Shown here: in pieces, positions 4,321 through 53,960 of the stretch | Numbering within the stretch: the stretch's first letter is position 1 | Layout of the letters: each line of letters starts with the position of its first letter | Source of the DNA: Acidobacteriota bacterium | GTDB lineage: Bacteria; Acidobacteriota; Thermoanaerobaculia; Gp7-AA8 | Assembly (NCBI GenBank): GCA_021781455.1 | Contig: JAJXWV010000050.1 | Coordinates: 1-64,000 of the forward strand | Length of the DNA stretch: 64,000 bases | Direction: 5' to 3' | The notes under the pieces: generated by a model | What the model was told of the DNA's origin: nothing | The model's database searches: none | The model's input: the letters and a program-made list of their open reading frames with translations, nothing else | Position numbers and translations under genes: made by a program

Positions 4321-4322
4321 CG

Positions 4323-5204: not shown

Positions 5205-5224
5205 GCGTAGCGGGGCGTTTGTCC

Positions 5225-5500: not shown

Positions 5501-5501
5501 A

Positions 5502-8795: not shown

Positions 8796-8863
8796 GGACG
8801 AGTGCAGATGATTGTAGCGGAACCGTGAACCATCAGTTTTCGCAGAGGCTGTGCAGAAATCGA

Positions 8864-25831: not shown

Positions 25832-25866
25832 TTGCCATATGTTGATAAGTGGGTACACTACAACAC
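25832..25866 (+). promoter_or_regulatory. Promoter of the AbiE operon, apparently leaderless
   Basis: TTGCCA (25832-25837) and TACACT (25854-25859) are spaced 16 bases apart. Transcription would start about seven bases on, essentially at the ATG at 25867, and no Shine-Dalgarno lies between, so a leaderless mRNA is likely. The remaining gap 25616-25831 has no convincing gene. Confidence 0.5.
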
Positions 25867-31671: not shown

Positions 31672-32445
31672 ATGATCGCCATAAATCGACCATTCCACTC
31701 TCGAATCGGGCTCATCGTCGCCGTCGCAGCGTGCGTGCTGACGGCAGCGATCGTCGTCGAAGAAGGCGCCGCGCAGTCGGTGGCAGCGGCCGCGAAGAAG
31801 CGTCGCGCCGAATCGACGTCGCAGGCGCGCCCGCAGGAGTTCAGCGGCAAAGTCGTCGAGACCATGGATGGCGGCGGATACACCTACGTCAGGATCCGGA
31901 CAGCGAGCGGCGAGACCTGGGCGGCGATTCCTCAGACGCCGGTCCCCGTCGGATCGACGCTCGCCCTGCATCCGCAGCTGACGCTCGAGAAGTTCGAGTC
32001 GAAGGCACTGAAGCGGACGTTCGACCGCATCCTCTTCGCGACAGTGATCACCTCAGCGGATCCCCATCCCTCGGTTAGGGGAACTGCCGACGCCGCTTCC
32101 CACATGTCGGTCGCGGAGGCGAAAGTCACCCGCGTGGAGAAGGCCAAGAACGGGCGGACGGTGGCTGAGCTCTGGTCCTCGCGGAAGGAACTGCAAGGCT
32201 CTGTCGTCATTGTGCGAGGGAAGGTCGTCAAGTCGACGCAGCAGGTGATGGGCCGCAACTGGATTCATCTGCGCGACGGCTCCGGGTCGCGAGCCGATGG
32301 GACTGACGACATCACCGTGACGACGTCGGAAGCCATTCCGGCCGGCGGCATCGTCACCGTTCGCGGCACGCTTCGCGTCGAACAGGACTTTGGCAGTGGC
32401 TACCGTTATGCGGTCCTCGTCGAAGACGCCACGCTGATCCCGTGA
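31672..32445 (+). CDS. Exported OB-fold protein, NrfJ-like
   Basis: 257 residues from MIAINRPFHS (AGAAAGGCAG upstream). A signal peptide or anchor (IGLIVAVAACVLTAAIVVEE) is followed by a strand pattern typical of the NrfJ-related OB domain: FSGKVVETMDGGGYTYVRIR, GETWAAIPQTPVPVGSTLAL, and a second OB unit ELQGSVVIVRGKVVKSTQQV, NWIHLRDGSG, then DDITVTTSE. In other bacteria such proteins are encoded beside nitrite-reductase or multihaem cytochrome operons. Here it precedes a 21-haem cytochrome gene by 237 bases. Role inferred as periplasmic accessory; no catalytic residues. Confidence 0.7.
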   Translation: MIAINRPFHSRIGLIVAVAACVLTAAIVVEEGAAQSVAAAAKKRRAESTSQARPQEFSGKVVETMDGGGYTYVRIRTASGETWAAIPQTPVPVGSTLALHPQLTLEKFESKALKRTFDRILFATVITSADPHPSVRGTADAASHMSVAEAKVTRVEKAKNGRTVAELWSSRKELQGSVVIVRGKVVKSTQQVMGRNWIHLRDGSGSRADGTDDITVTTSEAIPAGGIVTVRGTLRVEQDFGSGYRYAVLVEDATLIP

Positions 32446-32682
32446 AGGGCGCAGGTTGCGAAGCACCGCCCAAGGTTGCAACGCTTTGGTCCGACCCGTT
32501 TGTGGCGGTGATCCGAGTGCAACCAGCCGTCAAGCAGGGCCCATCGCACGCTTTTTCGCGATCCACTCGGCACGAACAAAACACACGTGGTGGCCGCAGG
32601 GTGTCCTGGGTGACCGATGTCACGGGTTCGCCTATCCCCTCCCCCCGCATCATGGAGAGGTCCAGACGGAGCGCCCAAAATC

Positions 32683-34416
32683 GTGAACAAAACCAGCCAG
32701 ATCTTCGCCCTTGCGGTGTTTCTCCTCACCACATTGGGGGATGTCTCAGCGAAGGACCATCCCTCGCTCGTCGATCCCGCCACGGCGAAGTGTGCGATCT
32801 GTCACGAGGCCGTGCTGGCGAAGGCGGTCAAACACCCGGCAGCGCTCGATGGTGGTTGCACGAGTTGTCATGAGTTCACGAAGGCGGACGGAAAGACGAC
32901 GGTCAAACTGGCTGCCGATGAGCCTCAGCTTTGCGTGACGTGCCACGATGCGATGGGCAAAGCGGCAGCCGGAACTCTGGCGGCCCCGCATGCTCCGGTC
33001 ACCAGCGCCTGCACGAGCTGCCATGACCCGCACTCGGCCGACAAGCCACATGTATTAAAGGATGCTCCACCGGCGCTCTGCCTCACCTGCCATGAAGCGC
33101 TCGCCCTCGACAAGAGCCATAAGCGGTCGGTGAGCAATTCGCAGTGCCTCGACTGCCATGCTCCCCACGGCTCCGAGAACAAGGGGATGCTCACCGCGGC
33201 GAAGCAGCATCCGCCGTTCGCCGAACGGAGCTGCGACTCCTGCCATCGGCAGGGAACGATCGCACGTGCCAAGCCGAAGAACAATGTCTGCTTCGCCTGC
33301 CACGACGAGAAAACCTTTCAGGCAAAGTTCGTCCACTCCGCGGTCAAGCGGGGACAGTGCACCGGTTGTCATGACCCGCACCTGTCCGACCGGCCCAAGT
33401 TCGTCCGCGCGGCCGGGCCCGCGCTCTGCACCGGATGTCACGCCGAGATCAAGACGAAGATCAGTCTGGCGAACGGCCATCCTCCTGCGAGAGATGACTG
33501 CACCACCTGCCATGATCCGCACAAGAGCGCGAATCCCAACCAACTGATCGACGTCGTCCCCGCGCTCTGCCTCACCTGCCATGACGCGACTGACAAGAAG
33601 CTGCTCGGGAAGCATCTCGACGCCGACCTGAGCAAAGCAGACTGCGTGTCCTGCCATGATCCGCACGGATCGGCGGAAAAGTCGCTGCTGGTCTCCGGCT
33701 CGATCCATCCACCCTTTGCCGAGCGAGCCTGCAACTCGTGCCACAAAGATCAATCAGCGGCGAAGTTCGTCGGTGCGACGAAGACGCAGGTATGCGTTGC
33801 CTGCCACAGCGATGTCGAAGAGACCGCGGCGAAGGCGAAGGTGCATCACCCTGCGCTCGACGCAGCCGAATGCACCGACTGTCACACGCCGCACGCTTCA
33901 CAGCAGGACCGGCTGATCAAGTTCCCAGCCGGCGGCGAATGCACAGGCTGTCACGCCGACAAGGTCCCGGAGGCAGGGGAGTTCGCGCACGGAGCCATTC
34001 CGTTCCTCGGCTGCCGCGCGTGTCACGAGCCGCACGGCGGCGAGCGGCCGAACCTCCTCCGCGCCGAGGGCGACAAGCTCTGCCTCGGTTGCCACGAAGA
34101 GAGTACGCGGAAGACGGACGACAAGAAGAACGTCGTCCTCCTCGACCATTTCAGGCTGACGGGCGACAAGGCAGCCGAGGCGCTGCGGATGTCGGCGGTG
34201 AAAGTCGCCGGCGATCACGTCGTCGACCATCCTCTGACCGGCCACCGCGCAACCGGAAAACCGACCGAGGCTGAGCTGAAGCAGGTCAGCACGACCTTCA
34301 CCGGCGAGCTCGGATGCCTCTCCTGCCACGATCCGCACAAAGGGCGCTCGAAAAATCACTTCAAGGGCAACGCGGTCGCCGCTGCCGATCTCTGCCTCCA
34401 ATGCCACAAGAAATGA
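32683..34416 (+). CDS. 21-haem c-type cytochrome (paired CxxCH repeats)
   Basis: 577 residues from a GTG at 32683 (GGAG upstream), which gives the signal peptide NKTSQIFALAVFLLTTLGDV; the frame is open to 32617. Twenty-one CxxCH motifs are spread from CAICH to the C-terminal CLQCH, many as CxxCHDPH or CxxCHTPH, the paired-CxxCH arrangement of cytochrome c3-like and c7-like domains, with extra histidines as distal ligands. Periplasmic or surface electron carrier. It opens a unit with the propeller gene that begins six bases after its stop. Haem attachment would be by the ResB/CcsA genes at 51.3-54 kb. Confidence 0.93.
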   Translation: MNKTSQIFALAVFLLTTLGDVSAKDHPSLVDPATAKCAICHEAVLAKAVKHPAALDGGCTSCHEFTKADGKTTVKLAADEPQLCVTCHDAMGKAAAGTLAAPHAPVTSACTSCHDPHSADKPHVLKDAPPALCLTCHEALALDKSHKRSVSNSQCLDCHAPHGSENKGMLTAAKQHPPFAERSCDSCHRQGTIARAKPKNNVCFACHDEKTFQAKFVHSAVKRGQCTGCHDPHLSDRPKFVRAAGPALCTGCHAEIKTKISLANGHPPARDDCTTCHDPHKSANPNQLIDVVPALCLTCHDATDKKLLGKHLDADLSKADCVSCHDPHGSAEKSLLVSGSIHPPFAERACNSCHKDQSAAKFVGATKTQVCVACHSDVEETAAKAKVHHPALDAAECTDCHTPHASQQDRLIKFPAGGECTGCHADKVPEAGEFAHGAIPFLGCRACHEPHGGERPNLLRAEGDKLCLGCHEESTRKTDDKKNVVLLDHFRLTGDKAAEALRMSAVKVAGDHVVDHPLTGHRATGKPTEAELKQVSTTFTGELGCLSCHDPHKGRSKNHFKGNAVAAADLCLQCHKK

Positions 34417-34421
34417 CGCCC

Positions 34422-35477
34422 ATGAACCGCTCAACGAAGATCCTTTTCGTCGCTGCAGTCGCACTCGCGCTTGTCGTACCAGCCGGAGAGTTGTCGGCTC
34501 AAAAACCTGCTGCCAACGCTGCCGATTCCTACGCTAAGTACGTCTGGCCGGCACCGCCCGACAAGCCACGGATCCGACTGACGGCGATCCTGAAGGGCCG
34601 GCCCGACGTCGAGGCCGTCTCGAATTTTTCGCGCCTGCTGCTGGGTGCCTCGCCTCAGGGACAGTACGACTGGCTCCAGAGGCCCTTTGCCGTGAAGTTC
34701 GACCGGAAGGGGCGGCTGCTCGTCACGGACACGGCTCTCGGGGCGCTGATCCGCTTCGACCGCAAGGGGCGGAAGATGGACGTCTTCGGGACGAACGGGG
34801 CGATGCGTTTGAAGGCGCCGCTCGGCCTGACAATCGGACCCGATGACACGATTTACGTCGCGGACGCGGGCTTGCAGAAGGTCGTGGCGTTCGATGCCGA
34901 TGGCAACGTGAAAACGGCGTTCGGGCGCCAGGGCGATCTCACGAATCCGACGGGCGTGGCGATCTCCCCGGACGGAGCGACGCTGTACGTTGCCGACTCC
35001 AAGGCACAGCGCATCGCGATCTTCGATGTGAAATCCGCCGCTCTCGTGAAGACCTTCGGCCAGCGCGGAGAAAAGGAAGGGGAGTTCAACTTCCCGACGT
35101 CGGTGACGTTCAGCCGGCAAGGTGAGCTGCTCGTCGTCGACCAGATCAATGCGCGGATCGAGGTGTTCTCAGCAACCGGGGAATACCTCGATACGTTCGG
35201 GCAAACGGGGGTTGGTTTCGGCAACTTCGTCCGTCCGAAGGATGTCGCGCTCGACGACGACGGGCTGATCTACGTGACCGACGCGGCATTCGGCAACGTC
35301 CAGATCTTCACGCAGGACCTGACGCTGCTGACCTTCGTCGGCGAGAACGGCACGGGACCGGGGCAGTTTCAGATCGCTTCGGGCGTCGCAACGCACGGCG
35401 ATGAATTCGCCGTCGTCGATCAGCTCGGCAAACGAGTCCAGGTATTCCGTTTCATCGTTCCCAGGGGCGAGCGGTGA
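34422..35477 (+). CDS. Secreted NHL-repeat beta-propeller protein (module 1)
   Basis: 351 residues from MNRSTKILFV. Signal peptide ILFVAAVALALVVPAGELSA. Five to six NHL blades follow: RPFAVKFDRKGRLLVTDTAL, APLGLTIGPDDTIYVADAGL, NPTGVAISPDGATLYVADSK, FPTSVTFSRQGELLVVDQIN, RPKDVALDDDGLIYVTDAAF and the closing VQVFRFIV. NHL propellers are usually protein-protein platforms with no catalytic site. Five bases separate it from the 21-haem gene, so the two are co-translated. Paralogues appear at 38245 and inside 41365-44610, each beside cytochromes. Confidence 0.88.
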   Translation: MNRSTKILFVAAVALALVVPAGELSAQKPAANAADSYAKYVWPAPPDKPRIRLTAILKGRPDVEAVSNFSRLLLGASPQGQYDWLQRPFAVKFDRKGRLLVTDTALGALIRFDRKGRKMDVFGTNGAMRLKAPLGLTIGPDDTIYVADAGLQKVVAFDADGNVKTAFGRQGDLTNPTGVAISPDGATLYVADSKAQRIAIFDVKSAALVKTFGQRGEKEGEFNFPTSVTFSRQGELLVVDQINARIEVFSATGEYLDTFGQTGVGFGNFVRPKDVALDDDGLIYVTDAAFGNVQIFTQDLTLLTFVGENGTGPGQFQIASGVATHGDEFAVVDQLGKRVQVFRFIVPRGER

Positions 35478-35692
35478 TGAGCATCGAAAAACGAGAAAGG
35501 AGGGGTGCACACGAACCACAGACGAAGAGGAAGGCGGGAAGGGGAAGGCGAGCCGCGGCACCGAACGCGTTCAGGAGCCTTGGCGGTACTGACGCTTCAC
35601 GCGTGCAAGCCAGCTCACCTTCCCACCGTCCGAACGGGTTGTCAGCCCACTTTATTCACCAGCCGCAAATGAACAAGCCAATTGGAGGGCAA

Positions 35693-36388
35693 ATGAAGAA
35701 GTTACTCGTTCTTACAGTGATGATGATGATGCTGCTGACGACGGCCGCTTTCGGCCTGAGCGTCGTCGGCTCCAAGCACGATCTCCGGATCACCGGCGGC
35801 GGGACGCCGACGGCGGGTATCAGCGAGGTCTGCGTCGTCTGCCATACGCCTCACCAGGCCAGCACCTCGGCCGGGCAGACGCCTCTTTGGAACAAGGGTC
35901 TTTCGGGGCAGGCAACGTATAGCGTGTACAGCAGTCCGACGCTGAACGCCGTGCCGACTGAGCTCGGCGGTGCGACGCTTGGCACAGCGCAGGTCTCGAA
36001 TCTCTGCCTCTCGTGCCACGACGGCACCGTGTCGGTTCTCAGCATGGCGAATCTGCCGAACAGCGGAGGCACCAACACCGCGACGACGGTCGCCGGCCAC
36101 ATTCTTGCTTCGGGCCAGATCGATCCCGCCAGCACCGCGAACATCGGCACATCTCTCACCAACGACCACCCGATCAACTTCACCTATGACGCGACCCTTG
36201 CCTCAGCAGATGGAGGCCTAGTGACTCCGGCCTCCGCGGCGTACGTCGATGCGGGGAAAAAGGTTCCCCTGTTCACTGGGACGGTGCAGTGTGCCTCCTG
36301 CCATGACGTTCACGACAACGTGAACCCGCCGTTCCTAGTCATGGCCAACACGGCCAGCGCTCTCTGCACAACCTGCCACGTGAAGTAA
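35693..36388 (+). CDS. Small tetrahaem cytochrome c (paralogue 1)
   Basis: 231 residues from the ATG at 35693 (TTGGAGGG upstream). Signal peptide KLLVLTVMMMMLLTTAAFG. Four CxxCH: EVCVVCHTPH near 48, LCLSCHDGTV near 104, QCASCHDVH near 200 and LCTTCHVK at the end, plus conserved HDLR near the N-terminus and DHPINF between. This layout (H..R...EVCxxCHxPH / LCLSCHDGT / HP / QCxxCHDxH / CxxCH) is shared with the protein at 39216. Size and four haems recall tetrahaem proteins that polymerise into extracellular filaments, but homology was not tested. An 11-bp hairpin separates it from the porin gene. Confidence 0.9.
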   Translation: MKKLLVLTVMMMMLLTTAAFGLSVVGSKHDLRITGGGTPTAGISEVCVVCHTPHQASTSAGQTPLWNKGLSGQATYSVYSSPTLNAVPTELGGATLGTAQVSNLCLSCHDGTVSVLSMANLPNSGGTNTATTVAGHILASGQIDPASTANIGTSLTNDHPINFTYDATLASADGGLVTPASAAYVDAGKKVPLFTGTVQCASCHDVHDNVNPPFLVMANTASALCTTCHVK

Positions 36389-36397
36389 GCCTCACGA

Positions 36398-36426
36398 CGC
36401 GGCGGGAGTCTCGTGCTCCCGCCGCG
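36398..36426 (+). terminator. Hairpin between tetrahaem cytochrome and porin genes
   Basis: A perfect 11-bp stem CGCGGCGGGAG / CTCCCGCCGCG with a 7-base loop and no U run. It is placed 10 bases after the tetrahaem stop and about 55 before the porin start. It may stabilise the upstream message or partly terminate, lowering porin expression relative to the cytochrome. Confidence 0.65.
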
Positions 36427-36481
36427 GTCATCCGGGTGGCTCGCGCTGCGCGCGGGCCAGCCGCATGACGAGGTCGTCAGA

Positions 36482-38248
36482 ATGATGTCCCGGATCGCCG
36501 CCGTTTTGCTCCTGATGAGCTGCGCGCCCATTGCACTTGCTCAGCAGTACGGGCAATGGTCATGGGAGGGAAGCGTCGCGGCAACCCAGCGGAAGTACAC
36601 GGAGGCGACCAGGACCGCGCGCCAGACGATCGCCGACCAGCGCGACATCAATCTGTCCCTGGCGATTCACGGGTTTCTCCTGCACCCTGCTCTCGGCAGT
36701 TTTCGCCTTGGCGTCGACTCGACGGCGAGTCGTGACGCGAGTGGACTCGGCTTGAAAACGAACCGGCTGGGCTACCGCGGCGACGTGAACATCCTTCCGC
36801 AGAGCCTCTTCCCCGTTCGCCTTTACGCGGCACGGCAGCACTATGCCTACGCGATGAACATCGACGACCCTTACCTCCTATACTCGGCTCCCGATTCTTC
36901 ATCGAGCCATGGCGGGGCATTGCGTGTTCGCGGCGGGCCTCTGAGCGGCCTCATCGCCGCTTCCGACCGGACGACGATCTCCTTCCTCGGGGGACAGCAA
37001 TCGCAGACGATCGCCGGCGATCACCTCGACTGGTCCCGCGCCTCCAGCGCACTCCAGCAGCACTACCGGCTCGAGAGGCAGAACCGCGACTACGGCGCCG
37101 GCGCGCGCCTCAATGACTTGATGCTCAATGCCGACGAGCACGCATCCTTCCCACGATGGCGGTGGGATATGACCGCGGTGGCGCTGCAGCGGTCGTTCGG
37201 ACCGGCCCAGGGCTCGCGGACGGATCTGGTGCGCATCCAGAATCATCTGGCCTCCGTGCCGCGCAACGGTCACGTCTGGGATTTGTCACTCGAATCGGGC
37301 TACAGCGGAAGCGATCGCGATGGTGTGGTGCAGACGCATGACCTCACCGGCCGTTACCTTCACGATCCCGTCGCGGGATGGCAGATCGTCCCGTTCGCCG
37401 GGTACGGGGTTCAGCTCTCCGACGGTACGACCGTGACGACTCCGCGGGTGGGGCTGAGCGCGAACTGGTCGGCCACTCGTCGCGGCGTCGACCTGTCGGC
37501 CAACTCCGCGGCGAGTGGGATGCTGCTGCAGTCGATCGGCAAGGAAGCCTCGATCAACCAGACGCAGATTTCGTGGTCTCTCGGAGGCTCTGCCGCGCAG
37601 GGGTCGCTGGAGTCGCTGCGGAAAGATTTGCTGGTGTCGGTTTCCCGGAATCAGCTTCGCTCCGCCGGAGAGACGTTCTCGCAGGTCCCCGTGCTCGGAT
37701 TCGGGCTGGCGGGGGCCGGTACCGAGGATGTGCAGCAGGCACGGCTCACCGTCCAGCGCCGGTTGCAAGACTCGCTTCTCTTGACGGCCTACTCCGACGC
37801 GTCGTCGCGGCGGTCTTCGCTGTCGATCGCGTCGACTGGGTACACCGCGACCAGCCTGACGAATACCGTGCAGCTCACAGCACGGAACATCGGCATCCTT
37901 CTGAACGAAGGAAGCGCGATGGTTCGCAGCACAACGACTCAGCGGATCCGTTTTCTCAGCGGCTCCGCGGCCTGGCGTCCGCTGCCCCTGGTCTCGATGA
38001 ATGTTCTCTATCGCAAAGACCGGCGGCAGACGATGTACGAGCCCGATCTCGACGGGCAACGGCTCGAGGTTGGGGCGACGATTCGGATCGGGGCGTTTTA
38101 CCTCACCCCCCGGATCTTCCGGGTGCGCGAGCGCCTGAGAAGCGGCGACGAGCGCGCCAGCAACGGTTTCACGATGAGCATCACGCGTCAGTTCGGCGGC
38201 TGGCTGCCGGTCGTCAGCGGGTATCAGCGCCGGGGAGTCGTGAAATGA
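36482..38248 (+). CDS. Outer-membrane beta-barrel protein (porin-cytochrome conduit type)
   Basis: 588 residues from MMSRIAAVLL. Signal peptide SRIAAVLLLMSCAPIALAQQ. The rest alternates amphipathic strands with polar turns, ends of strands marked by Arg/Tyr pairs, and finishes near a barrel-type C-terminal strand (GFTMSITRQFGGWLPVVSGY). No cysteine-haem motifs. Size and context, between tetrahaem, propeller and octahaem genes with overlapping frames, fit the MtrB/PioB/OmbB role: a barrel sheathing a cytochrome across the outer membrane. Family assignment is by pattern only. The downstream propeller gene overlaps its stop (ATGA). Confidence 0.75.
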   Translation: MMSRIAAVLLLMSCAPIALAQQYGQWSWEGSVAATQRKYTEATRTARQTIADQRDINLSLAIHGFLLHPALGSFRLGVDSTASRDASGLGLKTNRLGYRGDVNILPQSLFPVRLYAARQHYAYAMNIDDPYLLYSAPDSSSSHGGALRVRGGPLSGLIAASDRTTISFLGGQQSQTIAGDHLDWSRASSALQQHYRLERQNRDYGAGARLNDLMLNADEHASFPRWRWDMTAVALQRSFGPAQGSRTDLVRIQNHLASVPRNGHVWDLSLESGYSGSDRDGVVQTHDLTGRYLHDPVAGWQIVPFAGYGVQLSDGTTVTTPRVGLSANWSATRRGVDLSANSAASGMLLQSIGKEASINQTQISWSLGGSAAQGSLESLRKDLLVSVSRNQLRSAGETFSQVPVLGFGLAGAGTEDVQQARLTVQRRLQDSLLLTAYSDASSRRSSLSIASTGYTATSLTNTVQLTARNIGILLNEGSAMVRSTTTQRIRFLSGSAAWRPLPLVSMNVLYRKDRRQTMYEPDLDGQRLEVGATIRIGAFYLTPRIFRVRERLRSGDERASNGFTMSITRQFGGWLPVVSGYQRRGVVK

Positions 38249-39219
38249 AGCGACGCCGCTGTCTCGCGATCGCGGTGATCTGGGCCGCGACGCTGGGGCC
38301 GGCGGGCCTTGCCGCCGCGGAGCGGCCGGGGTGGACGGCGCGCGGGGCGCGCATCGAGCTGGAGAGAGTGATCTCGACCAGGCACGATCTCGCCACGCGG
38401 CGAGACGCCGTGATCGCGTGGCTCATGGGAAAAGAAGACGAGCCACTGTTCCGGAGGCCATACGGCGTTGCCTGGGACGGTTCCGATCTCCTGGTTGCCG
38501 ACCCCGCCGCACATCGGGTTACGCGCGTTGCGGGAACGACGATCCGCAGCTCGCGGGAAGGAGCCGTGGAGGATCCGGTGGGCGTCGCCGTGTGCAACGC
38601 CGGTATTTTCGTGACGGATGCGCGAGCGGGTGCAGTCGCGGTGCTGAACCACAATCTCCAGCGCACGCGATGGCTGGCGTCGAATCTATCGCGCCCGACC
38701 GGGATCGCGTGCAGCGGCGACGACATTTTCGTCGTCGAGACGGCGGCGCATCGGGTGCTCGTGATGGACAGCCGGGGCGCGGTGAAACGGATCATCGGGG
38801 GGCGCGGAGAAGGAGCGGGCGAGTTCAATTACCCGACTTCGATCGCCGTTGCAGGCCAGTTCCTCTTCGTGGGTGACACGTTGAACTTCCGCGTGCAGCG
38901 GATTGATCTCCTCACGGGAGCGCAGGTGATTGCGTTCGGCACTAACGGTGATGCCGCGGGAAACATGCCGCGGATCAAAGGCATCGCTGTCGACGCGCAG
39001 CACCACATCTGGATCACGGACGCGCATCTCGATCAGATCGCGATCTACACGGCGGAGGGCGAGTTCCTCGTGGCGATCGGGCGAACCGGCTTCGCGCCGG
39101 GCGAGTTGTCGTTCCCGGCCGGCATCGCGTTCGCGGAGGACGGGCGGATTGCCGTTGCCGATTCGTTGAACGGCCGCGTCCAGATATTCCGCCTTCTCGG
39201 CGCGGGAGGCATGGAGTGA
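38245..39219 (+). CDS. Secreted NHL-repeat beta-propeller protein (module 2)
   Basis: 324 residues; the ATG overlaps the porin stop by four bases. Signal peptide CLAIAVIWAATLGPAGLAAA. NHL-type blades: RPYGVAWDGSDLLVADPAAH, DPVGVAVCNAGIFVTDARAG, RPTGIACSGDDIFVVETAAH, YPTSIAVAGQFLFVGDTLNF, RIKGIAVDAQHHIWITDAHL and FPAGIAFAEDGRIAVADSLN, closing with VQIFRLL. Same fold class as the 34422 gene, but clearly diverged. The next cytochrome gene starts inside its last codon (GTG at 39216). The tight porin-propeller-cytochrome coupling suggests one assembly. Confidence 0.88.
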   Translation: MKRRRCLAIAVIWAATLGPAGLAAAERPGWTARGARIELERVISTRHDLATRRDAVIAWLMGKEDEPLFRRPYGVAWDGSDLLVADPAAHRVTRVAGTTIRSSREGAVEDPVGVAVCNAGIFVTDARAGAVAVLNHNLQRTRWLASNLSRPTGIACSGDDIFVVETAAHRVLVMDSRGAVKRIIGGRGEGAGEFNYPTSIAVAGQFLFVGDTLNFRVQRIDLLTGAQVIAFGTNGDAAGNMPRIKGIAVDAQHHIWITDAHLDQIAIYTAEGEFLVAIGRTGFAPGELSFPAGIAFAEDGRIAVADSLNGRVQIFRLLGAGGME

Positions 39220-39884
39220 AAGCGCCCGCCATTCTTCTGATTGCACTGCCGTTGCTCGCCACGTCCGCTGCAGCGCAGCAGGGGAACGTTCGCGCGACGA
39301 TGCACAATCTTTCGGTCAGCGGGACAGGACAGATCAAGTCGTCGACCGAGACTGAGGTCTGCAAGTTCTGTCACATCCCGCACAGCGCAATCGTGCCGCA
39401 GCCGCTCTGGGGTCACGCCCTGTCGAGCGTGAAGCAGTACCAGGTACCGCAGGTGCGATCGAAAGGGACACGGATCCTGGCGCCACAACCCGATGGCAGC
39501 TCGCGGCTTTGCCTTTCGTGCCACGACGGGACCGTCGCCCTCGCGGATGTCGGCCGTTCCCCGAGGAAGCCCTCGATGTCGGGGCCGACCCATCTCGCTC
39601 CCACTCAGCAAGGATTCATCGGCATCGACCTGTCCGGCAGCCACCCCGTGTCGATCCGGATGCCCGACGGCAGCGACCAGCAGAGCGCGGACGACATGGG
39701 ACTCAAGTCACTCGCGGTGGTCCAGGCCGATCGGCAGGTCCGGCTCGACGAGAGCGGAAAAATTCAGTGCACGACCTGCCACGATCCGCATTCGGACCAG
39801 TACTACCAGCCCGGCCGAGCTGCGCATTTTGCGGTGAAGCCGTCGACAACGGAGATCTGCGTCACATGTCACGAAGTCCGCTGA
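39216..39884 (+). CDS. Small tetrahaem cytochrome c (paralogue 2)
   Basis: 222 residues from a GTG overlapping the propeller stop. Signal peptide APAILLIALPLLATSAAAQ. Four CxxCH: EVCKFCHIPH, LCLSCHDGTVALAD, QCTTCHDPH and ICVTCHEVR at the C-terminus, with HNLSVSG near the N-terminus and SHPVSIRMPDG between haems 2 and 3. The same order and spacing as the 35693 protein mark them as paralogues. It overlaps the next cytochrome gene by 19 bases. It could be the partner that sits within the porin, or the first subunit of a chain. Confidence 0.9.
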   Translation: MKAPAILLIALPLLATSAAAQQGNVRATMHNLSVSGTGQIKSSTETEVCKFCHIPHSAIVPQPLWGHALSSVKQYQVPQVRSKGTRILAPQPDGSSRLCLSCHDGTVALADVGRSPRKPSMSGPTHLAPTQQGFIGIDLSGSHPVSIRMPDGSDQQSADDMGLKSLAVVQADRQVRLDESGKIQCTTCHDPHSDQYYQPGRAAHFAVKPSTTEICVTCHEVR

Positions 39885-41020: not shown

Positions 41021-41364
41021 GCCGGATCATGGCGCTGATCGCGAGTCGTAACCGCCGGGCGAACCAGAATGTGACGCAGATCACGTTTGAAGCGCCGAAT
41101 GAAGCGATTTCTGACGCGTCCTACACGCTTCCGCCGATCGGTCTATACCAAAAGCAAGAGGAATCCAGCGCGTTTCGTATGTCGAAATGCCGATGGGGAA
41201 CTCAAAGAAATTCTAAGGACTTAAGGCATTCGCGGAGGTTTCGCTGCGAATGCTCGGAAGTCGATCATCCAGAGTCGTGCAGCACATCACAGAGGGGTGT
41301 TGTGGCACACCCGATCATGCACCCGGAGAAACGCTGCGGCCGTACTGGCGCAGCCCTGCAGCCA
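41021..41364. other. Gap between the porin unit and the giant-protein unit
   Basis: 344 bases. A frame stays open across it, but its content does not look protein-like and it lacks a ribosome site. Probably holds the promoter of the 41365-54 kb unit; no clear -35/-10 or hairpin could be defended. Confidence 0.4.
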
Positions 41365-45692: not shown

Positions 45693-45711
45693 GGCCGAGG
45701 AGCCAACTTCG

Positions 45712-48700
45712 ATGTTCGAGAACGATCGGCAGAACCTTTCTTCCCGCTACACACGTGCTCGCAACGTGCTGCTGGTGATTGGCGCCGCTGCAGGGCTGGC
45801 GTCGATGATGATGCATGCGTTTGCCGCGCCGGTCAGGGACGGACAAATTATCTACAGTATCAATAACGCCACTCCTCAGGCGCGCACGTACACGGCGGCA
45901 ACGAACGTCTTTGGTGCGCAGGGACCGACGGTTGCCGGCGGCACGCCATCGTTCACGGTGATGCACTCGGCGCCGACGCGAAACGAGCAGATCGCCGGCT
46001 ATGTCACCACCGGCGGCCAGCTGTACATCCTTCGTTACAACGGAGCTGCATGGTCGAACGAGTGGAACGTCGCCGTCGGCGGCAACGGGGTGAGCGGCCG
46101 GCGTTTCGACATCGCGTACGAAAGCACGACCGGGCGGGCGATGGTCGTGTATTCGAGGAATGTGACCGGAACGGACGAACTGGCCTACAGGATCTGGAAC
46201 GGCTCCACATGGACGGCTGCCGTCAACATCAATCCGGCGCGCATCCAGGACGTCGCGACGTGGGTGAAGCTCCTGCCACGCGCCGGCACCAACGAGATCG
46301 CGCTGACGGTTTGCGACACCGGGTCGACCACAACCAACACCGCCAACCTCACCACGATGATCTGGAGCGGGACGGCCTGGGGCAACGAGCCGGGAGCCGC
46401 TCACGCGACGAACCTGTACAACACGACCGGCCAGCTGGTCCAGAACGATCTGTTCGACCAGGCCTGGGAGTCGACCACCGGTGACCTGATGGTCGTCTGG
46501 ACCCAGGGCACGCCGCAGCAGTACTGGCACGCCTGGACACGATCCACGGCCACGTGGGGGACAGCGACCTCGTTCGGAACCGGCTATTCCGCTCCCTTGC
46601 AGATGTCCCTGGCATCGGATCCGAGCTCCGACGGCGTGGTGCTGATTTTCAACCGAAACGGATCAGCGAATGTGTATGCCACGGTCTGGACCGGCGCGGC
46701 CTGGTCCGGCGTGTCGAATCGTGGAGGGAATGGCATCACTACGGCGAACAACAAGAAGCACGTCACGGCCGAGTGGCTCGCCACGGGGGGGACGTCGTAT
46801 CCGGTCGTCCTGTGGGCAGCCAGCACCGCGGGGAGGGTCGGCTACTGCTCCGCCACGGTTACCGGCACCACCGTCAGTTGGAACACGGCAGCCACGCAGG
46901 ACTTCACCGGCACCTTCGGCAACTGGGCCTGGATGGACTCGGTCGTCGACCCAACCTCCGGCGACACGCTGATGCTGACCTTCTCCGACACCAACAACGA
47001 CCTCTGGGCGCGGAGGCTCGTGCTCACCGCCGGACCGACGCTGACCTGGACCGCGGACTCGAGCGGCGCTCTCAGCACGACGCTCACGAACAACACCACA
47101 CAGAACTTCTGCTTCGACTACGACCGCCTGGCGCCGGCCACGACCATCGCCACGGGCACCGACCCGGCGAACAGCGCGATTTGCCCCCCGGGCGGCACGC
47201 CCGCGGCGTTGGACGCTGACTCTTTCACTCTCCAGACGAACACTTTGACCGACAGCATCAGCGCGGTCACGGTCTCCTTGGGCACGAATACCTGGCCCGG
47301 CGTCTCCAGCGTTCAGATCACGAACGACGCCGGAACGACCACCTACGGCAGCGCCACGCCGGCGGGCGATAGCGTCACGGTCAACCTGACCACCGCGATC
47401 GTCGCCAACACGACGGCCACGCAGTATCACGTCCGCGTCGTCCCCTTCTCCGCGACCGCCATGCCCGCTCCGCCGGGAGCCACGTACGCGGTCAATGCGT
47501 ACGTCACGGGATTTACGAGTGGCTTCGCGCAGACCGGGGCCGACACGGCTGGAACGACCATCACCATCGACAACGCCTCACCGGCCGATGCCGCCTGGGG
47601 TACGAACTCGGCGGGCGACAACAAAGTCTCTCTCGCCTGGACCAATCCGGCCGCCGATTTCGCCGCGGTCGTCGTCCTGCGAAGCACGACCAACCCCGTC
47701 CCCGACCGGCCGGCCGAAGGCGTCGCGTACACCGCGCCGGCGACGATCGGCACGAGCACCATCGTCTACTCGGGCAACCTCCAGGCGTTTACCGACTCGA
47801 CCGTCACGAACGGAACGGCTTACTACTACAAGATCTTTGCGCGCGACGCCTGCGCGAATTACTCCGGCGGTGTTCAGACGGGGCCTCTGACTCCTTCGGC
47901 TCCGATTGCCGCCCTCACCGTAGGCGCGGCAACCGGGGTGGTCGACTCATGCAGCCAGATCACGGTGACCGCGGCCTTCAACGGCGACACCGGTACATCG
48001 AACAGTTCCACCACCTTCGAACGGGCCACGGCCATCGGCGGCCCGTTCACCGCCGTCTGCTCAGGCGTCACCGGCCCGACTCCGCGCTCATGCACGTTCC
48101 CGGCCCTCACAGCGAATACGCCGTACTATTTCCGGGTCACCTTCACCGACCCCGACGGGGTGACGGGGCAGAACCCGCAGATCGTCGGGTCGTACACGAC
48201 GCCGGTCTGTCCGGCCGCGTCACCGACGGCAGCCGGAACCGCGACGGCGCAGGTGAGCTCCTGCAACCAGATCACGGTCATCGCACCGTTCACCGGCGAC
48301 GGCAACGCGAACGGCTCGGTCAAGGTCGAATACAACACGTCCAACGCCTGGCCTGGCACCGTGTCATGTGCAGCGGTCAGCGACCCTTCCCCGCGGCAGT
48401 GTCTCGTGACGGGGCTGGCGGCATCGACGGCCTACTACGTCCGAGTCACGTATTCCGATCCGGATACGGTCACCGGAACCAACCCGCAGGTCGTGGGGCC
48501 GCTGACGACCGCCGCGTGCGGTGCCGACAAGGTACCTCCGATGGTCCTGTTCCTCGCACCGGCGCGGAACGCCGTGATCGGCGGGACGGACCGGGCCAAG
48601 GTTCAGGTCTGGGACGCCGGAGGTCTCGCAGCGACCAACCCGGTTCAATGGGCCCTCGACGGAGCCGTCCTGTCGGCGACGGGCGTGACGCAGAACGCGA

Positions 48701-51288
48701 ATTACTCCTGCGGTACCGGCTGCCGGGTCTATGAATTCGACGTTGCGACAAGTGCTCTGACCAACGGTGCCCATTCGCTCACGGTTCAGGCGACGGATTC
48801 AGCCGGCAACGTCGGGGGGCAGTCCGTTGCCATCGTGGTGAACACCAGTGGCACTACGGCGAAGGGTGGAGGCACGCTGCTGAGGCGGACCTACGGCTCG
48901 CAGCTCTGCATCGACTGCCATGCGCTCGCCACGCATTCGAGCCAGATGACTTCGAGCAAGTACGGCAACTGGTCGATCGACTGCCTGACCTGCCATACGC
49001 CGCACAATACGCAGAACATCGAGCTGGTACGCCGCCAGATTCGCACCCCGAACAGTGGTGTGAACACCATCGACTTCCGCCTGACCGACGTCGCTGGCGG
49101 AGGCGAGCCGCAGTACTCGCACCTCGGCGACGCTTCCGGCACCAACTACACCGACGGCATCTGCGAGACCTGCCACACCAAGACCAATCACTACCGCAAC
49201 GACACCTCGGGCGGCGATCACACACACAACTCGACGACCCGTTGCATCGGCTGCCATCAGCACCAGAAGGGTTTTGCCGCGTCGGAGAGCGTCGGCGGCT
49301 ACTCGTGCTCGACCTGCCATCCGGCGATCTGGAACGGCATGAACGGCAGTGTGGCGAAGACGACCAGGCACACTCTCGGCAATGTCGTGGGAACCAACGA
49401 CTCGTTCACGGACACCACGCTCGCCTGGGGCAATCCGCTGAACGCCACCGCCGCGGCGTCGCGGTCCTGCGTGAACATGTGCCATCAGGACCACGTTCAC
49501 AACAACCCCGGAGGTGCGACGCACAACTACAACGTCCACCAGGACGGATCGACACAAGCCTCGCGCAGCGTCACGCGCGATGCCGCTGGCAACATCACCG
49601 GTGGTACACCGAACCAGACCGACTTCAACGCTTCGCTGGCAAACGGCGGGATGTGTCTCTCTTGCCACACGAACCCGGTCGATGCGGCGCATCCGGCGTT
49701 GGTGCAGGCCAACTACACCGCCTCGGCGCACAACTACACCAACGCTGGTAGCTTCGGCGCGTGGCAGTACATCCTCCACGACGGCTCGGCCTTCGACCGC
49801 AACTGCATCAAGTGCCATTGGGACTCGAGCGACGGTACGACGCCGGCCATCTCGTCGGCCAGCGCGATCGGCGCCGTGCACAGCAACGCCAACGCGTCGC
49901 TCCTGATGGGCACGACCAACCCGGCCGGAGCGCCGGCGAACCTGATCTGCTATCGCTGCCACGGAGGCGGGACCACCGGCGCCGACTACTCGTCGAAGGC
50001 GGTCTTTCAGGATGGGGTCAAGACGTACGCGCACCCGATGAACGCCGACACGGTTCACAACTCCACGACCGAGTTCACCAACGCCGCGTGGGGCAACACG
50101 CTCGGCGTGACCGGCCGCCACGCGAACTGCCAGGACTGCCACGAGCCGCATGTCGCCCAGAAGGCGGTCAAGCAGGGAACCGCGAGCGCCGCCACCACCA
50201 CGACGCTGACCGACTCCTCGATGAACGGCCGCTGGACCGCCAGCCAGTGGGTCGGCTCGCTTCTCTACGTGCCGTCCCTCGCCGCCGGCCAGAACACTCG
50301 CAGCATCACGGCGAGCACCGCGGCCGGCGCTCTCACCGTCGCCGCGTGGACCACTGCGCCGGCAGTCGGAGCGGCCTACTACATTCTCGACAACAAGGCG
50401 GACGGAGCGCTCACGGGCGCCTGGGGGGCACAGCTCTCGAGCAATCCAGCGCTGTGGACCGCACCGGCGGGTACCAACTTCACCAAGCAGACGCTCGGTG
50501 CCGGCAGCGGGCTCCAGGCCACGCTCTGCTTCAAGTGCCACAGCAGCTATTACTGGGGAACCGGAACCGTGCCCAACGGTCTCTCGCCGAATGGAACCGC
50601 CACCACGCCGGTCGAGACCGACGTGGCGATGGAGTTCAATCCTGCGAACCGGTCAGGCCATCCGGTGCTGGCATCGCTGAACAACTACACCGGCAACACG
50701 GCGCCGAAGGCTCTCACTGCGGCGCAGCTCAGCGCGCCCTGGAACGTCAACCGCGGCACGCAGACGATGTCGTGTTCCGACTGCCACAACACAGACGCCG
50801 CGTCGCCCGCCGCGCAAGGGCCGCACGGATCGGCCGTCAAGTTCATGCTGACCGGAACGAACAAGTACTGGCCGGAGAACGCCTCAGGCGCCGCGTACAC
50901 GCTCGGCAACAAGCCGGCCAACAACACGTTCCTGGCCGGCCTGTTCTGCCTCAACTGCCATCCGATGTTCACTGGGACGACGACCAACTACTCCACGGCA
51001 GACTGGGCGGGGAACAACGTCCACTACGAACACTCGGGCGTGCAGCTCAGCGGCGTGTATTGCTATCAGTGCCACATCATCATCCCGCATGGCGGGAAGG
51101 TGTCGCGCCTGATCGCCACGAACACGGGCGGCCTGCCCGCTCGGTACGCCTATTCGAACAACGTCTCGAACGTGTCGGTCACGCAGTTCATGAAGGCGGC
51201 GGGACCCGGTTCCTACCAGACAGGGAACTGCGCCGCTTCCTGTGACACCAGCACCCACGGAACCGTCACCACACCGGAGACCTGGTGA
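45712..51288 (+). CDS. Giant surface cytochrome: beta-rich N-terminal half, 13 CxxCH plus one CX3CH
   Basis: 1858 residues (GAGGAGCC upstream of the ATG). An N-terminal hydrophobic stretch (VLLVIGAAAGLASMMMHAFA) serves as signal peptide. Residues about 40-500 form repeated beta-strand units with Trp (WSNEWNVAVGGNGVSGRRFD type). Fibronectin III-like domains follow (about 620-950), then an Ig-like segment (PPMVLFLAPARNAVIGGTDR). The haem region is residues about 1065-1800: CIDCH, CLTCH, CETCH, CIGCH, CSTCH, CVNMCH (CX3CH), CLSCH, CIKCH, CYRCH, CQDCH, CFKCH, CSDCH, CLNCH and CYQCH. An adhesive or scaffold head fused to a wire-like domain. The resB start overlaps its stop. Confidence 0.9.
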   Translation: MFENDRQNLSSRYTRARNVLLVIGAAAGLASMMMHAFAAPVRDGQIIYSINNATPQARTYTAATNVFGAQGPTVAGGTPSFTVMHSAPTRNEQIAGYVTTGGQLYILRYNGAAWSNEWNVAVGGNGVSGRRFDIAYESTTGRAMVVYSRNVTGTDELAYRIWNGSTWTAAVNINPARIQDVATWVKLLPRAGTNEIALTVCDTGSTTTNTANLTTMIWSGTAWGNEPGAAHATNLYNTTGQLVQNDLFDQAWESTTGDLMVVWTQGTPQQYWHAWTRSTATWGTATSFGTGYSAPLQMSLASDPSSDGVVLIFNRNGSANVYATVWTGAAWSGVSNRGGNGITTANNKKHVTAEWLATGGTSYPVVLWAASTAGRVGYCSATVTGTTVSWNTAATQDFTGTFGNWAWMDSVVDPTSGDTLMLTFSDTNNDLWARRLVLTAGPTLTWTADSSGALSTTLTNNTTQNFCFDYDRLAPATTIATGTDPANSAICPPGGTPAALDADSFTLQTNTLTDSISAVTVSLGTNTWPGVSSVQITNDAGTTTYGSATPAGDSVTVNLTTAIVANTTATQYHVRVVPFSATAMPAPPGATYAVNAYVTGFTSGFAQTGADTAGTTITIDNASPADAAWGTNSAGDNKVSLAWTNPAADFAAVVVLRSTTNPVPDRPAEGVAYTAPATIGTSTIVYSGNLQAFTDSTVTNGTAYYYKIFARDACANYSGGVQTGPLTPSAPIAALTVGAATGVVDSCSQITVTAAFNGDTGTSNSSTTFERATAIGGPFTAVCSGVTGPTPRSCTFPALTANTPYYFRVTFTDPDGVTGQNPQIVGSYTTPVCPAASPTAAGTATAQVSSCNQITVIAPFTGDGNANGSVKVEYNTSNAWPGTVSCAAVSDPSPRQCLVTGLAASTAYYVRVTYSDPDTVTGTNPQVVGPLTTAACGADKVPPMVLFLAPARNAVIGGTDRAKVQVWDAGGLAATNPVQWALDGAVLSATGVTQNANYSCGTGCRVYEFDVATSALTNGAHSLTVQATDSAGNVGGQSVAIVVNTSGTTAKGGGTLLRRTYGSQLCIDCHALATHSSQMTSSKYGNWSIDCLTCHTPHNTQNIELVRRQIRTPNSGVNTIDFRLTDVAGGGEPQYSHLGDASGTNYTDGICETCHTKTNHYRNDTSGGDHTHNSTTRCIGCHQHQKGFAASESVGGYSCSTCHPAIWNGMNGSVAKTTRHTLGNVVGTNDSFTDTTLAWGNPLNATAAASRSCVNMCHQDHVHNNPGGATHNYNVHQDGSTQASRSVTRDAAGNITGGTPNQTDFNASLANGGMCLSCHTNPVDAAHPALVQANYTASAHNYTNAGSFGAWQYILHDGSAFDRNCIKCHWDSSDGTTPAISSASAIGAVHSNANASLLMGTTNPAGAPANLICYRCHGGGTTGADYSSKAVFQDGVKTYAHPMNADTVHNSTTEFTNAAWGNTLGVTGRHANCQDCHEPHVAQKAVKQGTASAATTTTLTDSSMNGRWTASQWVGSLLYVPSLAAGQNTRSITASTAAGALTVAAWTTAPAVGAAYYILDNKADGALTGAWGAQLSSNPALWTAPAGTNFTKQTLGAGSGLQATLCFKCHSSYYWGTGTVPNGLSPNGTATTPVETDVAMEFNPANRSGHPVLASLNNYTGNTAPKALTAAQLSAPWNVNRGTQTMSCSDCHNTDAASPAAQGPHGSAVKFMLTGTNKYWPENASGAAYTLGNKPANNTFLAGLFCLNCHPMFTGTTTNYSTADWAGNNVHYEHSGVQLSGVYCYQCHIIIPHGGKVSRLIATNTGGLPARYAYSNNVSNVSVTQFMKAAGPGSYQTGNCAASCDTSTHGTVTTPETW

Positions 51289-52571
51289 GAATCTCTCTGT
51301 CGAGCCTGCGGAGGTTCCTGCGCTCTCCGCGGCTGATCGTCGCGGAGATCGCCGGGATCACTCTCGGCGGGCTCGTGATGGCGATCATGCCGCAGGAGGG
51401 TGGCGTGCGGGCCGGATTCTCCGGCGGCCTGGTCTCGGCGCTCGCGCTCGACCGCGTCGCCCGCTCTCCGTGGTTCGTTGGTTTCGTGCTTTTCTCGATC
51501 GCCTCCCTGTGCGTGGTCCTCATCGACCAGACGAAGCGCGCCTGGCTCCTGTCGAGGCGCCGTCCGGTTCCGGCGGCCGCCGCAGCGGCACCGTACCGCC
51601 GCGAAGCGATTCTCCACGCCGCCGCCCCTGATGTGCCGGGCTCGGAATACCGCGTCCGCGGGTCTCTCGGCCATTGGGGCTCGCCGTTGTTTCACGCCGG
51701 CGTTCTCGTGGTGATCGTCGCCGGCCTTCTTCGGCTGCTCTTCGGCGCGGACGCCGCCGTCGACCTCATCGTCGGCGAGACTCTCGACTCGCGGAGCGGC
51801 TACGACCTCCAGCGTCCCGGGCTCCTCGGGAGCCCGTTCGCGTTCCCGCAGGATTTTCGTCTCGATGACCTCCGCGTTGAGCGCTATCCGTCGGGAGAGA
51901 TGAAGTCGGTGGAAGGCGTGGTTTCGGTCGGCGAAGGATCGCGCGCCGCCCGGCGTGTGATCGCGATCAACAGTCCCACGCGCGTCGGCGTCCACACGCT
52001 CTACATCACGTCGCTCGGCGGGTCCGCCGTTCTTCTGGAGATTACCGGCGCCAGCGCAACCGAGCGCCGCGCGATTCTTCTGCGCGAAGCAGCCGGCGGC
52101 AGCGAAGGCAGCATCTGGCTCGCCGACCGTACGCAACTGCGCGTGAGCTCCGACGCTGGCGGGCTCGGTCGCGTTCCCGCCCGCGTCGAAGTCCGCGCTG
52201 CGCGCGACGGAGCGCTCTTCGCCATCGCCCAGCTCGCACCGGGCGAGTCGATGACGCTTCGGGGCGGCCGCCGGATCTCCGTCGCCGGAGTCGTCCCCTG
52301 GGTGCAAATCTCGGGTCAGAGAGACCTCTCGACGCCGGTCGTCTACTTCGGATTTCTCATGGCCTGCCTTGGCGGCCTCCTCATGGTGGCGGTGATCCCG
52401 GTCGAGACCGTGGTCACTCGCGAGAAAGTCACCGCAGGAATCCGGCTCACCGTCGTCATGCGGCCGCGGAAATTCGTGCCGCTGTTCGCCCCAGCGTTCG
52501 AGGATCTTTGGCGCCGCAGCTGCGCGGGACTCGATCCCGTGGAGCTGGAGTACCGCGATGAATGCGCTTAG
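51285..52571 (+). CDS. resB: ResB-like cytochrome c maturation protein (system II)
   Basis: 428 residues from a GTG overlapping the giant cytochrome stop. Four hydrophobic segments (LIVAEIAGITLGGLVMAIMP; FVGFVLFSIASLCVVLIDQT; FHAGVLVVIVAGLLRLLFGA; FGFLMACLGGLLMVAVIPVE) surround a large periplasmic domain (about 185-350), the ResB/Ccs1 topology. A conserved HWGSPLFHAGVLVV carries a likely haem-pathway His. With CcsA it transports haem and attaches it to apocytochromes in the periplasm. Its fusion to this operon by overlapping frames suggests a maturation system dedicated to the neighbouring cytochromes. Confidence 0.85.
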   Translation: MRISLSSLRRFLRSPRLIVAEIAGITLGGLVMAIMPQEGGVRAGFSGGLVSALALDRVARSPWFVGFVLFSIASLCVVLIDQTKRAWLLSRRRPVPAAAAAAPYRREAILHAAAPDVPGSEYRVRGSLGHWGSPLFHAGVLVVIVAGLLRLLFGADAAVDLIVGETLDSRSGYDLQRPGLLGSPFAFPQDFRLDDLRVERYPSGEMKSVEGVVSVGEGSRAARRVIAINSPTRVGVHTLYITSLGGSAVLLEITGASATERRAILLREAAGGSEGSIWLADRTQLRVSSDAGGLGRVPARVEVRAARDGALFAIAQLAPGESMTLRGGRRISVAGVVPWVQISGQRDLSTPVVYFGFLMACLGGLLMVAVIPVETVVTREKVTAGIRLTVVMRPRKFVPLFAPAFEDLWRRSCAGLDPVELEYRDECA

Positions 52572-53136
52572 GTTCCTTCGGTCCCGCGCTGCTCTGTTTC
52601 TTGCGTTCGCCCTCGTGCTGGCGGCCACCGCGTGCCGCGATCTCTCCGACGACCGTGCCGAGGCGCTCGTGAAACGCTACGACGAAAAACTCATCGAGGC
52701 CTACCGCCTCGGAGACGAACGAATCGTCGACGGCCTCGTGGGCGACGAGGAAGGAAAGAAGCTCACCGGACTGATCGGCGTGAAGACGGACATGGGGATC
52801 AACCTCGATTCAGTCCTGACGCAGTTCCGCGTCACCGGCATCGCCCGTCCGCGGAACGGGAACGTCGAGGTCCTGACCGAAGAGCGCTGGCACTACCGCG
52901 ACCGTCGCATTGGAAGCGGCGAGACGGTCGGACAGGAGTCGGACGACCACTACTTCATGCGCTACACCCTCACGCGCAAGAACGATTCGTGGGCGGTGGC
53001 GCGCGTGGCGTTTGAACAGCCGCCAACGATTGGGCGAACGACGGCACTCGTCCAGGCGTCTCCAAAGGTTTTTCACGGGTCGCTGGCGCCTCCGCGCGAG
53101 CCGGCGCCGGCGCCCGGCAAAAGGAAGACACCATGA
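52558..53136 (+). CDS. Lipoprotein encoded between resB and ccsA
   Basis: 192 residues. The N-terminal hydrophobic stretch (ALFLAFALVLAATAC) ends in a lipobox (AATAC), so the mature protein is anchored by Cys near residue 25. The soluble part (ALVKRYDEKLIEAYRLGDER, GLIGVKTDMGINLDSVLTQF, EVLTEERWHYRDRRIGSGET) resembles the IMS/ARC6-like fold used as a protein-interaction domain; the assignment is tentative. The C-terminus is Pro-rich. It overlaps resB by 14 bases and ccsA by four. Possibly an assembly factor presenting apocytochromes to ResB/CcsA. Confidence 0.75.
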   Translation: MNALRFLRSRAALFLAFALVLAATACRDLSDDRAEALVKRYDEKLIEAYRLGDERIVDGLVGDEEGKKLTGLIGVKTDMGINLDSVLTQFRVTGIARPRNGNVEVLTEERWHYRDRRIGSGETVGQESDDHYFMRYTLTRKNDSWAVARVAFEQPPTIGRTTALVQASPKVFHGSLAPPREPAPAPGKRKTP

Positions 53137-53960
53137 CTGAATTCGGCACCGAGGTCGTGCTGCACTGGACGGCCGTCGGCATCTACATCGCCGCGGCGGT
53201 TCTCTTCGGGAACGCGGTGATCTTTGATCATCCGCATCGCACCCGCTTGGCCATCGTGCTCACTGCGGCGGGCCTTCTGCCTCACGGTGCGGCGATCATC
53301 CTTCGATGGCTGGAAGTCGGCCATGGCCCGTACATGCTCAAGTACGAGGTCCTCTCTTCGAACACCTGGATCGCCATCGCCATGCTGGTGATCTTTCTGC
53401 TGCGGCGGCCGGACTGGAGTGTGCTCGCGCTGGTGGTGGTGCCGGTCTCGATCCTCATGATTGCGATGGGGCTGTTCTCCAATCCGCAGATGCGCGAGCT
53501 GCCGCCGGCGCTTCGGTCGATGTGGCTCGTCTTCCACATCTCGTTCGCGAAGGTGTCGGGTGCGGCGTTTCTGCTGTCCGTGGCCAGCGGAGTGGTCCTC
53601 CTTCTCAAAGAGCGGCCGCGCCACTGGCCGTGGCTCGACAGGATTCCGGACGAGGCCGCGCTCGATGCTTACATCGTTCGATTCGTCGGGTTCGGATTTC
53701 TGTTCTGGACCATCACCGTGGCGGCAGGTGCCATCTGGGCGAACGAATCGTGGGGACGTTACTGGGGATGGGATGTCATCGAGACCTGGTCGTTGATCAC
53801 CTGGCTCGTGTACGGGACGTTCCTGCACGTGCGGCTGTTCTTCAAGCTGAAGCCGAAGGCGACCGCGTGGTGGGCGATCGGCTGCATGGCCGTCTTCGTG
53901 CTGACGATCCTCATCCTTCCCTTTCTCATGCCCTCGCTCCACTCGACCTATTTTCAGTGA
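53133..53960 (+). CDS. ccsA: CcsA/ResC-like haem handling protein (system II)
   Basis: 275 residues with about eight hydrophobic helices. The WWD signature is present (ANESWGRYWGWDVIETWSLI, near 207). Conserved His residues occur in LLPHGAAII, FHISFAKVSGAAFL and the C-terminal FLHVRLFF. CcsA and ResB form the system II haem lyase that delivers haem to CxxCH sites. Overlap with the lipoprotein gene (ATGA) completes a resB-lipoprotein-ccsA trio. No CcsX/ResA thioredoxin or CcdA is seen, so reduction of the cysteines must rely on other loci. Confidence 0.88.
   Translation: MTEFGTEVVLHWTAVGIYIAAAVLFGNAVIFDHPHRTRLAIVLTAAGLLPHGAAIILRWLEVGHGPYMLKYEVLSSNTWIAIAMLVIFLLRRPDWSVLALVVVPVSILMIAMGLFSNPQMRELPPALRSMWLVFHISFAKVSGAAFLLSVASGVVLLLKERPRHWPWLDRIPDEAALDAYIVRFVGFGFLFWTITVAAGAIWANESWGRYWGWDVIETWSLITWLVYGTFLHVRLFFKLKPKATAWWAIGCMAVFVLTILILPFLMPSLHSTYFQ

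Follow-up and report, generated by a model that had tools for sequence, protein, structure and literature searches.

The closest described counterpart of the gene cluster analysed here is the Uet (undecahaem electron transfer) pathway, known from Tenderiales and some Gallionella, which, as later work describes it (PMC10734462), likewise combines a tetrahaem cytochrome, a barrel porin, two NHL proteins and an 11-12-haem cytochrome with doubled CxxCH motifs. The osc (omcS-companion) and oetABI gene sets, as later papers portray them, have a similar assortment of a filament cytochrome, a beta-propeller, an isomerase, a barrel or channel, and large multihaem cytochromes. Other points of reference are the tetrahaem OmcE filament of Geobacter sulfurreducens (PDB 7tfs), the MtrCAB conduit, and the PCC3 set, in which a porin goes with a ~21-haem periplasmic cytochrome (PMC5566968). 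As for haem attachment, four ResB/ResC-type pairs lying beside multihaem genes in Geobacter were proposed in 2009 to be dedicated (PMC2700814). The way in which cytochrome nanowires attach to the outer membrane and take up charge from it is, by one account, still a matter of speculation (PMC12307469).

The window, i.e. the whole stretch of 64,000 nucleotides that was analysed, belongs to the genome of an uncultured acidobacterium of the class Thermoanaerobaculia, and its haem-rich cluster is listed in Table 1. Our recount of the haem motifs is identical to that of the earlier note, with 54 CxxCH in six multihaem cytochromes (21+4+4+7+5+13 in B, D, G, H, J and K) and two CX3CH (CYLNCH in H, CVNMCH in K), both of the latter being kept in homologues. 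All six genes lie on the plus strand; a scan of the window finds no CxxCH in any frame outside 31672-53960, and a single one on the minus strand inside it. Being confined in this way, the motif reaches a density in the cluster far above chance. Pfam assigns Paired_CXXCH to six out of six cytochromes and NHL repeats to C, F and I, which confirms the three propeller proteins proposed earlier, while fn3 is above cut-off in I and just below it in K. The ResB-lipoprotein-CcsA trio is borne out as well, by ResB (L) and CcsA (N) above their Pfam cut-offs and by the lipobox of M.

Table 1. Features of the cluster, with positions in the window.
Feature	Coordinates	Strand	Evidence
A: small secreted OB-fold-like protein	31672..32445	+	weak OB-fold matches
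B: 21-haem periplasmic cytochrome, wire-like	32617..34416	+	Paired_CXXCH E=1.7e-92; 28.5 aa per haem
C: secreted six-bladed NHL propeller	34422..35477	+	NHL E=3.7e-22
D: OmcE-type tetrahaem cytochrome, proposed filament subunit	35693..36388	+	7tfs homology
GC-rich hairpin, 11-bp perfect stem, directly 3' of D	36398..36426	+	folding z -5.3
E: outer-membrane barrel, 28 predicted strands, proposed conduit/export sheath	36482..38248	+	AlphaFold2
F: NHL propeller, plain signal peptide	38245..39219	+	NHL E=9.5e-22
G: second OmcE-type tetrahaem cytochrome, proposed filament base/adaptor	39216..39884	+	7tfs profile E=3.9e-23
H: octahaem, 7 CxxCH + 1 CX3CH, proposed in-barrel wire	39866..41020	+	motifs
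I: FN3 + NHL surface-type protein	41365..44610	+	fn3 2.5e-12, NHL 1.5e-6
J: pentahaem cytochrome	44607..45692	+	Paired_CXXCH
K: 1858 aa; Ig/FN3-like N-terminal part, C-terminal 13 CxxCH + 1 CX3CH	45712..51288	+	
L: ResB (CcsB-type), system II	51285..52571	+	PF05140 E=1.1e-18
M: small lipoprotein between ResB and CcsA	52558..53136	+	lipobox ATAC
N: CcsA, system II synthase, WGRYWGWD motif	53133..53960	+	PF01578 E=2.7e-35

The genes had been called mostly overlapping or near-overlapping, which applies to 7 of the 13 junctions (two more are shorter than 20 bp) and not to the gaps of 171, 215, 93 (between D and E) and about 344 bp; the start of I is uncertain, its frame being open from 41017. Scans detected no sigma-70-like promoters, and terminator-like matches only near background level. 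The cluster had also been taken to begin at 31672. Yet homologues of gene A are found in none of the related cassettes, and this gene is probably a neighbour outside the system rather than a core member. The description as self-contained is only partly right, since neither an inner-membrane quinol oxidase nor a prolyl isomerase (PPIase) gene is found in the window locus.

What the earlier note had missed is that the cluster includes, by homology and haem ligands, members of a filament-forming cytochrome family. D matches the OmcE filament over its full length (E=2.4e-32 with the single sequence, 3.5e-51 with a profile), followed by 9yuq_N, a tetrahaem chain present in 16 copies, and nothing else in the PDB is matched at high significance. 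G matches the same two chains and is a full-length homologue of OmcE as well. In an alignment of 24 D/G-type sequences that took in OmcE and 9yuq, the four CxxCH motifs and the eight ligand histidines (four in CxxCH, four distal) are kept in 24 of 24. Both proteins thus belong, by homology and ligand pattern, to the OmcE-type tetrahaem cytochromes, and D may polymerise into an extracellular filament. The arrangement differs from that of OmcE in having two paralogues per cassette, one of which is fused to the putative conduit cytochrome in other groups. D is also the only core gene regularly trailed by a strong hairpin when cassettes are compared: stems like the one in the window, some with a T tract, follow most D genes, whereas none was found after B, E or G and only one each after C-, F- and H-type genes. 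A hairpin at this place would fit a major subunit produced in larger amounts than the proteins of the downstream genes, an arrangement familiar from other fibre operons.

D and G are part of a seven-gene core (32617-41020) in which a 21-haem cytochrome (B), an NHL protein (C), a tetrahaem cytochrome (D), the barrel (E), a second NHL protein (F), a second tetrahaem cytochrome (G) and the 7+1-haem protein (H) follow each other. A synteny check around barrel homologues, as proposed earlier, indicates that this order is conserved across the class and, in a variant form, across Acidobacteriota; it recurs in related loci as far as the contigs reach, some loci being cut by contig ends. Protein identity to relatives is mostly 40-60% in the core (53-60% for C) and about 25-35% for the barrel, the relatives of B also hold 21 haems, and F carries a lipobox in most relatives. 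A genome of another class encodes the same seven genes (L113); in a tree of five concatenated proteins this locus is nested inside, and the window itself is weakly placed (0.69). Five loci in other acidobacterial groups consist of NHL, D, NHL and a single ORF in which G and H are fused, with the OmcE-like domain at the N-terminus and exactly 11 CxxCH plus one CX3CH, accompanied in most cases by a shorter B-like cytochrome and a divergent barrel. A sixth locus of this group (L112) is more divergent. Several relatives (L021, L031, L033, L038, L114, L115) carry a gene for a PPIC-type isomerase between D and E. The cassette is patchy: of 148 sampled genomes, 11 (host included) encode the barrel, and the host is the only one of 18 sampled genomes of its family to have it. 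Each of the 11 class genomes that encode it also has a full-length D. Among named MAGs, homologues of the barrel come almost entirely from Acidobacteriota, several of them labelled Thermoanaerobaculia, with one record labelled only "bacterium". In a search of a plasmid collection D had no match, and F matched generic propellers only.

Relatives of the downstream genes I, J and K, found mainly in family f6, lie either close to the cassette or on other contigs; in f6 genomes, I-related proteins are encoded close to it. The adjacency of J and K is conserved in relatives, and in two relatives K is 57% identical over the first ~430 residues of its cytochrome part and has the same haem number. In one related locus (L086, 3316-6609) the pentahaem J protein is preceded, in one continuous frame, by a propeller/choice-of-anchor ORF whose tail is IPTL-CTERM-like.

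The outer-membrane barrel put forward in the earlier note is upheld by an AlphaFold2 model of E built from 12 sequences (28 strands, mean pLDDT 84.5), although E matches no sequence family in Pfam, NCBIfam or the PDB. Its best VIA-align match is MtrB (6r2q_B; Z 16.7, rmsd 6.9 over 457 residues), whose lead over pilus ushers in second place (Z 15.3) is modest; absence of a barrel family from the VIA-align list is not counted against that family, and Foldseek lists many barrel types for the same model. The model thus supports a wide barrel with room for a cytochrome; the evidence does not extend to membership of the MtrB family. The candidate occupant, H, has 18 invariant histidines for eight haems, two above need, and the two spare ones could serve neighbours. 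H has a weak similarity to MtrA (6r2q_A, E=3.5e-4) and scores 58.5 bits with the DmsE model (cut-off 192.2); its AlphaFold2 model (10 sequences, pLDDT 38.8) is not usable. B does exceed that cut-off, with 221.4 bits, through its repeated paired motifs, but holds 21 haems and not ten. B also gives the best score with the OmcA/MtrC model (76.5 bits, cut-off 209.3). The locus therefore resembles MtrCAB in the fold of its barrel and in the weak MtrA-like similarity of H, and differs from it in that no MtrB or MtrC family cut-off is reached and H stays far below that of DmsE/MtrA.

The earlier note had concluded that the combination matches no named system. This is not supported, as the composition fits Uet and is near osc/oet, and the ResB/ResC pairs of Geobacter are a precedent for the haem-loading genes. 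In the relatives with an isomerase, the order D-PPIase-barrel fits UetA-B-C, and the haem number of G and H together equals that of UetJ. However, UetJ is a single undecahaem protein, which the window splits into G (four haems) and H (seven plus the CX3CH site); the PPIase (UetB), present in several relatives, is absent from the window; one 21-haem protein stands in place of the three periplasmic trihaem proteins (UetDEG), none of which has a counterpart here; and genes I to N come in addition. In view of the split UetJ and of the lack of the PPIase and the trihaem proteins, we do not file the locus as a Uet member, although it would work like one. From osc/oet it differs in having OmcE-type subunits instead of the hexahaem OmcS (there is no six-haem protein among the cluster cytochromes) and a 21-haem partner in place of 16- and 26-haem ones. 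PCC3, compared by description, has an extracellular ~34-haem cytochrome and a conserved five-helix inner-membrane protein; no counterpart of either is recognised here, ResB and CcsA being the only recognised membrane proteins within 32617-53960. Uet-like composition, resemblance to osc/oet and dedicated ResB/CcsA pairs are thus already known in kind. New are the split "undecahaem" protein, the 21-haem periplasmic partner, the lack of a PPIase gene and a private system II beside system I. No description of an Acidobacteriota version of the cassette was found in the literature searched, which is not proof of absence.

We consider it probable, if well short of certain, that the core genes specify an electron conduit across the outer membrane and, wired to it, an OmcE-type filament. 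This reading is based on MtrB as best fold match of the barrel, the fusion of G and H, the homology and ligands of D and the kept gene order. The isomerase between D and E in relatives, which parallels the chaperones in Uet and osc, the hairpin behind D, the full-length D of every class genome with the barrel, and the MtrC/MtrA family proteins and candidate inner-membrane oxidoreductases that the host encodes elsewhere point the same way. Counting against it are the want of a sequence family for the barrel and the modest lead of MtrB among its fold matches, the PPIase missing from the window locus, the patchy distribution of the cassette and the K homologues that have no system II genes close by. 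The extracellular electron transfer suggested earlier is thereby well supported, by OmcE homology, the MtrB-like barrel and the conserved cassette. Periplasmic carriers would pass electrons into B as a periplasmic wire, from there to H placed inside barrel E, on to G as an OmcE-fold unit sitting on the outward-facing end of H, then finally to D, which would polymerise from G as the extracellular wire. The order of electron flow, the position of H within E and that of G on H are our suggestions, and the flow could run in either direction. C and F, propellers that many relatives make as lipoproteins, might scaffold or cap the complex, and I, J and K could contribute surface adhesin and cytochrome parts. 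Since G and H are one protein in relatives, we read G as a base or adaptor on the conduit cytochrome. A more specific and tentative idea, to which we give rather less than even chances, is that G is the built-in base for wire D, making a conduit-nanowire junction served by its own haem-loading system.

An alternative, which appears unlikely, is that barrel and propellers are mainly a machine for secreting and assembling the wire, with other roles for H and B or an electron supply after assembly. It would account for the PPIase between D and the barrel in several relatives and for pilus ushers as second-best barrel matches, and it has a parallel in osc, where OscD-H are proposed to act in this way and osc genes reportedly take part in the folding, secretion and shaping of OmcS wires; but MtrB is the top fold match, and a pure secretion channel needs no octahaem protein, let alone one fused in relatives to an OmcE fold. 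Less probable still is an extracellular conduit with no filament, D and G being surface tetrahaem reductases. UetA, of the nearest named pathway, is described as an extracellular tetrahaem cytochrome, and what cytochrome filaments do physiologically is under dispute (PMC11077965); against this, the high-significance PDB matches of D are all OmcE-type tetrahaem chains, with all ligands kept. A periplasmic electron store or respiratory complex that transfers nothing to the outside would agree with the high haem number and with window cytochromes whose translations show no lipobox and hence no evident surface anchor, but is made highly improbable by the outer-membrane barrel and the OmcE homology. 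The preferred reading of a conduit wired to a filament extends OmcE-type wires with a conduit to uncultured Acidobacteriota, and the pairing of a filament-type subunit with another protein of its fold, which in relatives is joined to the putative conduit cytochrome, opens the question of anchoring to direct tests. The gene set thus probably builds a haem-protein wire, its outer-membrane plug and an extra haem-loading system, in an arrangement that suggests how such wires attach to the cell.

The system II genes had been regarded as dedicated to the cluster, which is plausible: CcmA, B, C, E and F together with a CcmH/NrfF-like gene lie on another contig, so that a system I coexists with the trio, and L is the sole ResB in the genome. 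N keeps the WWD motif, while its score with TIGR03144 (160.9 bits) is below the cut-off of 187.6. ResB-M-CcsA might load haem for the haem-rich set alongside the general system I, a substrate preference that we propose. The likeness to the Geobacter pairs (PMC2700814) consists in a system II pair accompanying multihaem cytochromes, as with GSU0613-0614 near omcE; the window differs by the lipoprotein between the two and by the system I of its host. In one relative, a CcsBA-like fusion and another CcsA-like protein are encoded after K, whereas the K homologues of L085 and L086 have no system II genes nearby. By gene neighbourhood, the link between K and system II is thus recurrent but not universal. 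That system II serves CX3CH sites as a general rule was rejected, because such sites are also found in homologues whose loci lack system II genes nearby.

Elsewhere in the same genome, an OmcA/MtrC-family decahaem protein (407.7 bits) is encoded with a DmsE/MtrA-family protein (L066, G000:C50:68000-80000, 3595-8841). A 656-aa ORF that follows them and belongs to no family may be the barrel of that set; it has no convincing similarity to E. Two further loci encode a NapC/NirT-type six-haem protein beside an 11-haem/cytochrome-b protein (L067, 7887-11375) and a cytochrome b6 of 1000 aa that carries 11 haems (L068, 1270-4269), all of them candidate quinol oxidoreductases that could feed periplasmic cytochromes.

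Within the window, the cluster is preceded by an AbiEi/AbiEii type IV toxin-antitoxin pair (25849-27362, +) and flanked by GGDEF-EAL cyclic-di-GMP proteins (28060-30834, +, with PAS and GAF, and 60560-62581, +). Directly 3' of CcsA lies a gene for a B12-binding radical SAM protein (54033-55463, +; BchE 412 bits, cut-off 481), which was discarded as a synteny anchor because genomes of the family give matches of 24-30% identity only; further downstream are a MerT-like mercuric transport protein (56140-56514, +) and a sugar dehydrogenase-like protein with a dockerin domain (58282-59532, +). In relatives, reading of the loci reveals a sensor kinase and a sigma-54-type response regulator upstream of the cassette (L021, 4008-6579), and a similar kinase/regulator pair near the I-J-K genes (L086, 287-3277).
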